Translations under genes and position numbers: made by a program | Notes under the pieces: generated by a model | Told to the model about the DNA's origin: nothing | Databases searched by the model: none | The model's input: only the letters and a program-made list of their open reading frames with translations | From: a virus | DNA length: 64,000 nucleotides | Reading direction: 5' to 3' (one strand) | IMG/VR virus record: IMGVR_UViG_3300047557_002951 | Span: 1-64,000 of that record | Part shown: piece after piece, positions 14,309 to 14,952 of the stretch | Numbering within the stretch: position 1 is the stretch's first letter | How the letters are laid out: every line of letters starts with the position of its first letter

Positions 14309-14317
14309 ACCATAGCA
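14309..14317 (-). promoter_or_regulatory. Extended -10 promoter for uvsW
   Basis: TGC followed by TATGGT (14309-14314) lies directly below the U-run of the terminator at 14319-14344 and about 14 bases above the uvsW ATG. No -35 match is visible at 16-18 bases, so it would depend on the extended -10 or an activator. The position relative to the hairpin is the same as in the elements at 866, 8031 and 11391. Confidence 0.4.
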
Positions 14318-14318
14318 T

Positions 14319-14344
14319 AAAAAAAGAACCATGGTTAGGTTCTT
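14319..14344 (-). terminator. Strong rho-independent terminator
   Basis: Minus-strand AAGAACC, loop TAACCAT, GGTTCTT, then a run of Ts (14319-14325). The 7-bp stem and long U-run make it the clearest intrinsic terminator in the window. There is no protein gene between it and the promoter at 14493-14521. Confidence 0.85.
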
Positions 14345-14486
14345 ATGACAGTTAATGAATTGTCTATAGTACTTAAGTTCCTTAATAGTTTCCTTCGGAA
14401 ACTTCTCTTCGAGAACTATCTAGATTTATTTTTTCTTTAAAGTTATTAAGTAATTATTAGATAAAACTTGTTTTTCATCCGTGACA
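14319..14486 (-). ncRNA. Candidate phage small noncoding RNA, about 167 nt
   Basis: A near-consensus sigma70 promoter (14493-14521) and a strong terminator (14319-14344) bracket about 167 bases with no credible reading frame: the only ATG frame near the 5' end encodes 10 residues. The RNA would contain an AU-rich 5' half, then two back-to-back hairpins with GAA loops, TTCTC-GAA-GAGAA (14403-14415) and AGTTTCC-GAA-GGAAACT (14387-14403), then the terminator hairpin. It lies between the SprT-like gene and uvsW. The alternative is an untranslated attenuated leader for uvsW. Confidence 0.6.
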
Positions 14487-14492
14487 AGGCTG

Positions 14493-14521
14493 ATTGTACA
14501 CACTTTTAAAGGTCTTGTCAA
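14493..14521 (-). promoter_or_regulatory. Near-consensus sigma70 promoter
   Basis: TTGACA (14516-14521), exactly 17 bases, TACAAT (14493-14498). It is the best early promoter match in the window and overlaps the stop codon of the SprT-like gene. What it drives is the noncoding segment 14486-14319. Confidence 0.8.
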
Positions 14522-14952
14522 GCCCCATCAAGAAATGTTACGAAATGATCATAAAGTATTGGTTCTTGTTGTTCTGCCTCGATCTCATGTGGTTGGTTGA
14601 CATAATCGAGATCATCTATTATAATGGTGTTCCAGTATCTCTTAGCATTCTTGATCTTCAGCCAACCTTGACAAAATTGATAAGCATGATATAATTCATG
14701 CAATAGTGTTTTGATATAATCGTCTGTTTTTAGAGTCTTCTCCAACTCAATCAAAAAACTCCTCGGATTTTCTCCATCTTCCTCATATGGAGAAATATTA
14801 CAATATCCATATACCTCATCTTTCTTTAAATTTTTATGTTCCACAATAATTTCTATCTCATAATTTTCCAAGTAGTTTTTACTAAACCATTCCACAATTG
14901 TGTAACATAAATCCTCACGCTTTTTTGCATTGATGATTTCAAGTTCCAACAT
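14518..14952 (-). CDS. SprT-like zinc metallopeptidase, 144 aa
   Basis: TLLHELYHAYQF (about residues 80-91) holds the HExxH zinc site, and EIEAEQQE about 40 residues later supplies a probable third ligand, as in SprT/gluzincin-type minimal metallopeptidases. The N-terminal 70 residues form the strand-rich part (YEIEIIVEHKNLKKDEVYGY). SprT-like proteins cleave DNA-bound proteins or serve in phage takeover; which applies here is unknown. The gene ends at the -35 of the ncRNA promoter. Whether it is transcribed from the late operon to its right or separately is not clear. Confidence 0.72.
   Translation of the reverse strand: MLELEIINAKKREDLCYTIVEWFSKNYLENYEIEIIVEHKNLKKDEVYGYCNISPYEEDGENPRSFLIELEKTLKTDDYIKTLLHELYHAYQFCQGWLKIKNAKRYWNTIIIDDLDYVNQPHEIEAEQQEPILYDHFVTFLDGA

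Follow-up and report, generated by a model that had tools for sequence, protein, structure and literature searches.

What the 222-bp gap between the genes for a SprT-like protein and a UvsW-like helicase encodes is the question raised by this locus. The window, the 64-kb stretch of DNA analysed here, is part of a 159,556-base virus record and belongs to a T4-like cyanophage (Kyanoviridae); its SprT-like and helicase genes match those of Synechococcus and Prochlorococcus phages, and every substantial gene of the window is carried by the minus strand. The initial annotation placed in this gap a candidate small RNA, trans-acting or structured, bounded by a promoter and a terminator and followed by uvsW. 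The SprT-like assignment has an E value of 6e-4 for PF10263, which falls under the curated cut-off. The downstream gene does encode a UvsW-like helicase, but it is probably a second UvsW-like helicase rather than the UvsW ortholog, since phage S-SKS1 has an annotated UvsW beside gp55 in addition to this helicase. The features of the locus are listed in Table 1.

Table 1. Features at the SprT-like/helicase gap (site A), in window positions, and promoters of the second site (site B)
Feature	Position	Strand	Remarks
UvsW-like (ResIII/DEAD) helicase, 409 aa	13066..14295	-	presumed served by P2
P2 -10 element, TGC-TATGGT	14309..14314	-	exactly 30 nt past the palindrome; TATAAT in most relatives
Intrinsic terminator	14317..14344	-	stem 14344-14324, 7 bp, 7-nt loop, then T run
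Predicted noncoding RNA or leader, ~165-170 nt	14318..14486	-	both ends inferred
Palindrome GACAATTCATTAACTGTCAT, P2 upstream element	14345..14364	-	from recurrence across records
Hairpin 3, TTAAG-GAA-CTTAA	14373..14385	-	GTTAA-GGTTA-TTAAC in L337/L338; absent in L339
Hairpin 2, AGTTTCC-GAA-GGAAACT	14387..14403	-	compensated in relatives: AGTTCCC/GGGAACT
Hairpin 1, TTCTC-GAA-GAGAA	14403..14415	-	compensated in relatives: TTTCC/GGAAA and TTTTC/GAAAA
Conserved initial transcribed region CTTGTCACGGATGAA (family TTTGTnnnnGTTGAAG)	14474..14488	-	from comparison of loci; possible mini-ORF from ATG
P1 predicted start	~14486	-	placed from P1
P1, sigma70-type promoter	14493..14521	-	TTGACA 14521-14516, 17 bp, TACAAT 14498-14493; 11/12 matches
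SprT-like protein, 144 aa	14518..14952	-	upstream neighbour; stop overlaps P1
Site-B promoters of S-8S55, S-RIM44, ACG-2014f, ACG-2014a, S-T4, S-CAM7, S-RIM2 and S-SRM01	phrog_471-gp55 gap		divergent from gp55

The minus-strand sigma70 promoter, P1, is present as first described. Its match to the consensus alone proves little, because about four such promoters are expected by chance in the window; five sites with at least 11 of 12 matches were observed in the 64 kb against 3.65 expected. The case therefore had to rest on comparison. P1 is kept in place and sequence in the relatives L337, L338, L339 and L006 and also in more than 50 more distant helicase loci, where it can be generalised as TTGACA-17-TAnAnT, followed by TTTGTnnnnGTTGAAGA. 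A start codon with lysine (ATG/TTG AAR) is conserved 7–8 nt past the predicted start, and a stop follows 5–13 codons on in most copies. A protein-coding mini-ORF was considered weak and was not adopted (it has no Shine-Dalgarno site, its sequence varies, and in L008 it is disrupted). Covariation of a 5′-end stem, ACC...GGT, in the same start region was discounted, as the predicted start falls inside the stem. The search for ORFs of at least 30 codons found none longer than 31 codons in the gap, and leader lengths across relatives differ by non-multiples of three. On these two grounds no conserved reading frame was found in the P1–terminator segment, in agreement with the earlier statement that no usable frame lies there.

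The two adjacent GAA hairpins described at the outset, with stems of 5 and 7 bp, are present at 14415-14387, but a third (14385-14373) had been missed. The hairpins are of a tandem C(GAA)G type. Stems of at least 5 bp closed by a GAA or TTC loop occur six times in the window (about 3.5 are expected over its whole length), and three of these lie within 43 bp, at hairpins 1–3. Taken as a whole, the 167 nt fold with only modest stability (z −1.9). An alignment-guided scan, via L006, identified L337 and L338 (helicase 85% identical) and L339 (72%), all of which have the SprT-like gene, P1, the leader, twin GAA hairpins, the palindrome, the terminator, P2 and the helicase. The stem of hairpin 1 occurs in the versions given in Table 1 and that of hairpin 2 as TTTCC/GGAAA or TTCCC/GGGAA, with the loops invariant. 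In the six distinct hairpin sequences, all from a single clade, the 11 pairs are 100% formed, and the variable pairs are changed on both sides in three of three cases, with none broken or one-sided; none of 500 shuffles scored as high in double-changed cells. Compensatory change in both hairpins was what the initial annotation had named as support for a structured RNA. We think it likely that 14318-14486 encodes a genuine structured noncoding RNA. An ordinary helicase promoter plus attenuator, favoured at first, was reduced to a rival once the twin hairpins had been seen in L337–L339.

Relatives whose helicase is less than 72% identical, L006 and those further away, have P1 and the terminator but not the twin hairpins, and in most site-A relatives the P1–terminator RNA is shorter and has no twin hairpins. 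Outside the hairpins and the start region, the leader body varies in length and sequence. An exact 28-mer twin-hairpin scan and a window-specific peptide scan gave no matches because the pattern was too strict.

As regards membership among phage sRNAs, the segment has its own predicted promoter and intrinsic terminator. The terminator's stem and T run are where they had been reported, and the terminator folds more stably than shuffles (−7.5 kcal/mol against −2.0 ± 1.7); however, it lies wholly within the 30-bp spacer between a palindrome and the -10 element of a second promoter, P2, which had gone unseen. The window palindrome is an exact match to the 18-base pattern GACAnTT-N4-AACyGkC. It recurs in 12 of the 13 records searched, up to 28 times per genome, with 0–1 occurrences of the reversed-pattern control. 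Fifty palindrome sites were fetched, 40 of them with a -10 of 5/6 or better, and in 35 of these 40 the -10 is 29–31 nt from the palindrome. No consensus -35 was found at the 50 sites, and a start codon usually lies 20–40 nt beyond the -10. In 80 helicase loci from viral contigs the order is an optional P1, a variable leader, the palindrome GACACTT-N4-AACyGGC, a GC hairpin with a T run, and TGCTATAATA. The palindrome with its extended -10 is thus a phage promoter class, and the helicase is probably driven by P2, not P1. Because the terminator is also the P2 spacer, the segment could be a terminated leader in addition to being an sRNA gene. Further palindrome promoters of this phage are found at 8085-8066 (minus strand) of the window, with palindrome, hairpin with T run and TATAAT, and at G000 156762-156743 (minus strand), with palindrome, 30 nt and TACAAT. 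Between the P2 element and the helicase's place, L231 and L273 have an ORF starting MPYK, which by appearance alone is possibly an HNH homing endonuclease.

This layout raises the alternative of a transcription boundary with a dual helicase promoter, in which the terminator ends upstream readthrough, P2 drives the helicase, P1 is an extra host-like promoter and the leader is without a role. Such an arrangement would fit the 74 of 80 loci with P1 and palindrome that precede the helicase, the many of the 80 helicase loci that have no P1 yet keep palindrome, terminator and P2, and the occurrence of the P1 start region directly before coding genes in L123, L153 and L142. It would also fit the stepped spacing of P1 and palindrome, which is 46–47, 55–57 or 66 in 57 unique loci. 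The broad clade has no lengths intermediate between the classes, and a wider scan added one further length, 97. Classes 46 and 56 interchange at least nine times on a helicase tree built by a quick method, which suggests that P1 and the palindrome are coupled by whole helical turns at the DNA level; promoter-region exchange between phages could mimic this. Helical phasing was not kept as a rule since, clear as it is in the main clade, it fails in the window's own group, with spacings of 142 in the window, 70 in L006 and 59 in L008. Nor does a boundary account for the compensatory hairpins, for the copies at a second site described below, or for L350, which keeps the SprT-like gene, P1 and the hairpins although a helicase was not detected within 2.5 kb downstream. 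We therefore consider this explanation rather unlikely. The P1–palindrome leader of L336 (4930-5200) contains a 41-nt tandem duplication, near four helical turns.

The cassette of P1, leader and twin hairpins occurs at two sites: site A, before the helicase, and site B, antisense between the phrog_471 gene and gp55. The twin-hairpin scan identified the B copies in L340, L348, L353, L355, L351 and L354, all antisense to the recombination/late-sigma operon, and they agree with the site-A copies in P1, the start region and the hairpins. The window copy and the L340 B copy are identical at 108 of 115 aligned positions, gaps aside. A covariance model recovered 13 of 13 A and B copies (E ~1e-14). 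The copies form two sequence types, and as each type holds A as well as B members, this points to concerted evolution; the likeness could also have arisen by gene conversion and have no functional meaning. In L356 the start is that of site A and the end that of site B, which may reflect either an assembly chimera at the repeat or a real rearrangement. No single contig with both sites was seen, and gp47 and the phrog_471 gene were not found in the window's record, which is evidently incomplete, so site B of this phage cannot be read. The structured RNA of the initial annotation is partly upheld, by the compensated hairpins, the repeated cassette and the lack of a conserved frame; it may also be a terminated leader.

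An antisense sigma70-type promoter was found at site B in all eight annotated cyanophages examined (Table 1), with 10–12 of 12 matches and a 17-bp spacer, and S-SKS1 also has one. The start region of S-CAM7 is the same as that of the window (TACAATCAGCCTTGTC). When the whole segment was searched against phage DNA, all matches were weak, and the best of them, in S-T4 and S-CAM7, are the site-B promoters. The twin hairpins were found in the window's clade only; P1 at site B is older.

In L351 (5085-5119) and L354 (3782-3816), a second twin GAA hairpin lies on the opposite (plus) strand, right after the phrog_471 gene, and faces the P1 RNA copy (covariance-model E values 9e-8 and 1.6e-7). Twin hairpins facing each other from the two strands, each close to where its own transcript presumably ends, would be expected if the hairpins were 3′-end stabilisers or RNase sites in convergent gene gaps and the RNA a by-product. 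The twin hairpins, however, have no T run after them, and at site A a separate proper terminator follows, which makes this explanation very improbable. We also regard as improbable, to a slightly lesser degree, a leader acting in cis by antitermination or attenuation, in which the hairpins or the mini-ORF would let polymerase from P1 pass the terminator into the helicase gene. Its model is the put RNA of phage HK022, an antitermination RNA in which a pair of tandem hairpins occupies the leader that separates promoter and terminator. Site A has the same order of elements, and the conserved ATG/TTG AAR would provide the mini-ORF. The hairpins here differ from those of put: they are short, with C(GAA)G triloops, lie at least about 75 nt past the start, and also occur in antisense copies at site B, where no terminator–gene pair follows in the sense orientation; the mini-ORF has the weaknesses noted above.

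A phage noncoding-RNA gene, or a terminated leader, of a repeated cyanophage family is on balance the probable explanation overall. Host RNA polymerase would start at P1 and produce an RNA of about 165 nt with two (here three) tandem C(GAA)G hairpins, stopping at the terminator, and the helicase would be made separately from P2, whose spacer contains that terminator. As A and B copies are nearly identical, the A-site RNA would be complementary to the strand opposite the B copies. The RNA, in cis at site B and in near-identical form from site A, would pair or interfere with the phrog_471–gp55 region of the recombination/late-sigma operon. At site A, transcription from P1 would run across the P2 palindrome, and helicase expression may thereby be tuned as well. 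Control of the late-gene switch is suggested by the likeness of the A and B copies and by their antisense placement at gp55. The most likely function, put forward here tentatively, is accordingly that of a regulatory RNA in the early-to-late switch; it is favoured because the conserved site adjoins the late sigma gene and because the copies stay alike, as pairing in trans would require. A wider proposal would be an RNA switch common to the T4-like cyanophages, in which an antisense RNA from the conserved host-type promoter divergent from gp55, with a near-identical trans copy in some lineages, pairs by its GAA loops with UUC loops of the uvsW–phrog_471–gp55 messenger and times late transcription. 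This we consider distinctly unlikely.

No Rfam 15 covariance model, checked as the initial annotation had proposed, matched up to an E value of 1. A host origin of the hairpins was rejected, as the pattern used had no match in the GTDB genome collection. CfrI is an antisense RNA of cyanophage S-PM2, opposite psbA. The site-B copies would likewise be noncoding RNAs of T4-like cyanophages antisense to phage genes; unlike CfrI, the RNA proposed here lies at the helicase and at phrog_471/gp55. CfrI has been named among the cyanophage noncoding RNAs (PMC9964418). No description of the present family was found in the literature searched, which did not cover the Syn9 transcriptome study. Phage sRNAs are a known kind; the RNA family, the two-site arrangement and the terminator within a promoter spacer appear to be undescribed.

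An early-gene regulatory element of cyanophage Syn9 was reportedly described by Doron et al. in 2016. The P2 palindrome may correspond to this element or represent the same class of promoter; its exact pattern is sparse in Syn9. Like the T4 middle promoters with their MotA box, P2 has a phage-specific upstream box that replaces the -35 element. Unlike that box, it is a 20-bp palindrome 29–31 bp upstream of the -10, and no MotA box was found about 12 bp upstream of the P2 -10, where a terminator arm and the T run lie. T4-like cyanophages have been reported to be without T4-like middle promoters and motA and/or asiA (PMC5780444), and their gene timing is poorly understood. The promoter kept in position next to the late sigma gene in each of the phages examined there, together with the repeated structured RNA next to the helicase, offers a specific candidate regulator that can be tested. 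The P2 arrangement, in which a terminator sits in the spacer between palindrome and extended -10, can also serve as an easy guide when promoters are annotated in cyanophage genomes.

Immediately before the SprT-like gene, GACACTTCAAAAAGTGTC forms a perfect palindrome at 15121-15104 on the minus strand; with the hairpin that comes after it (AAGCTC..GAGCTT), it is similar to the palindrome–terminator module. Within the SprT-like gene itself, the plus strand has two antisense sigma70 promoters, each a perfect 12/12 match, that lie 71 bp apart (14597-14625 and 14668-14695), where 0.15 are expected per 64 kb. Judged by eye from the alignment, L337 but not L339 preserves the pair of hexamers in each promoter, and the two promoters may be incidental because they overlap conserved codons.
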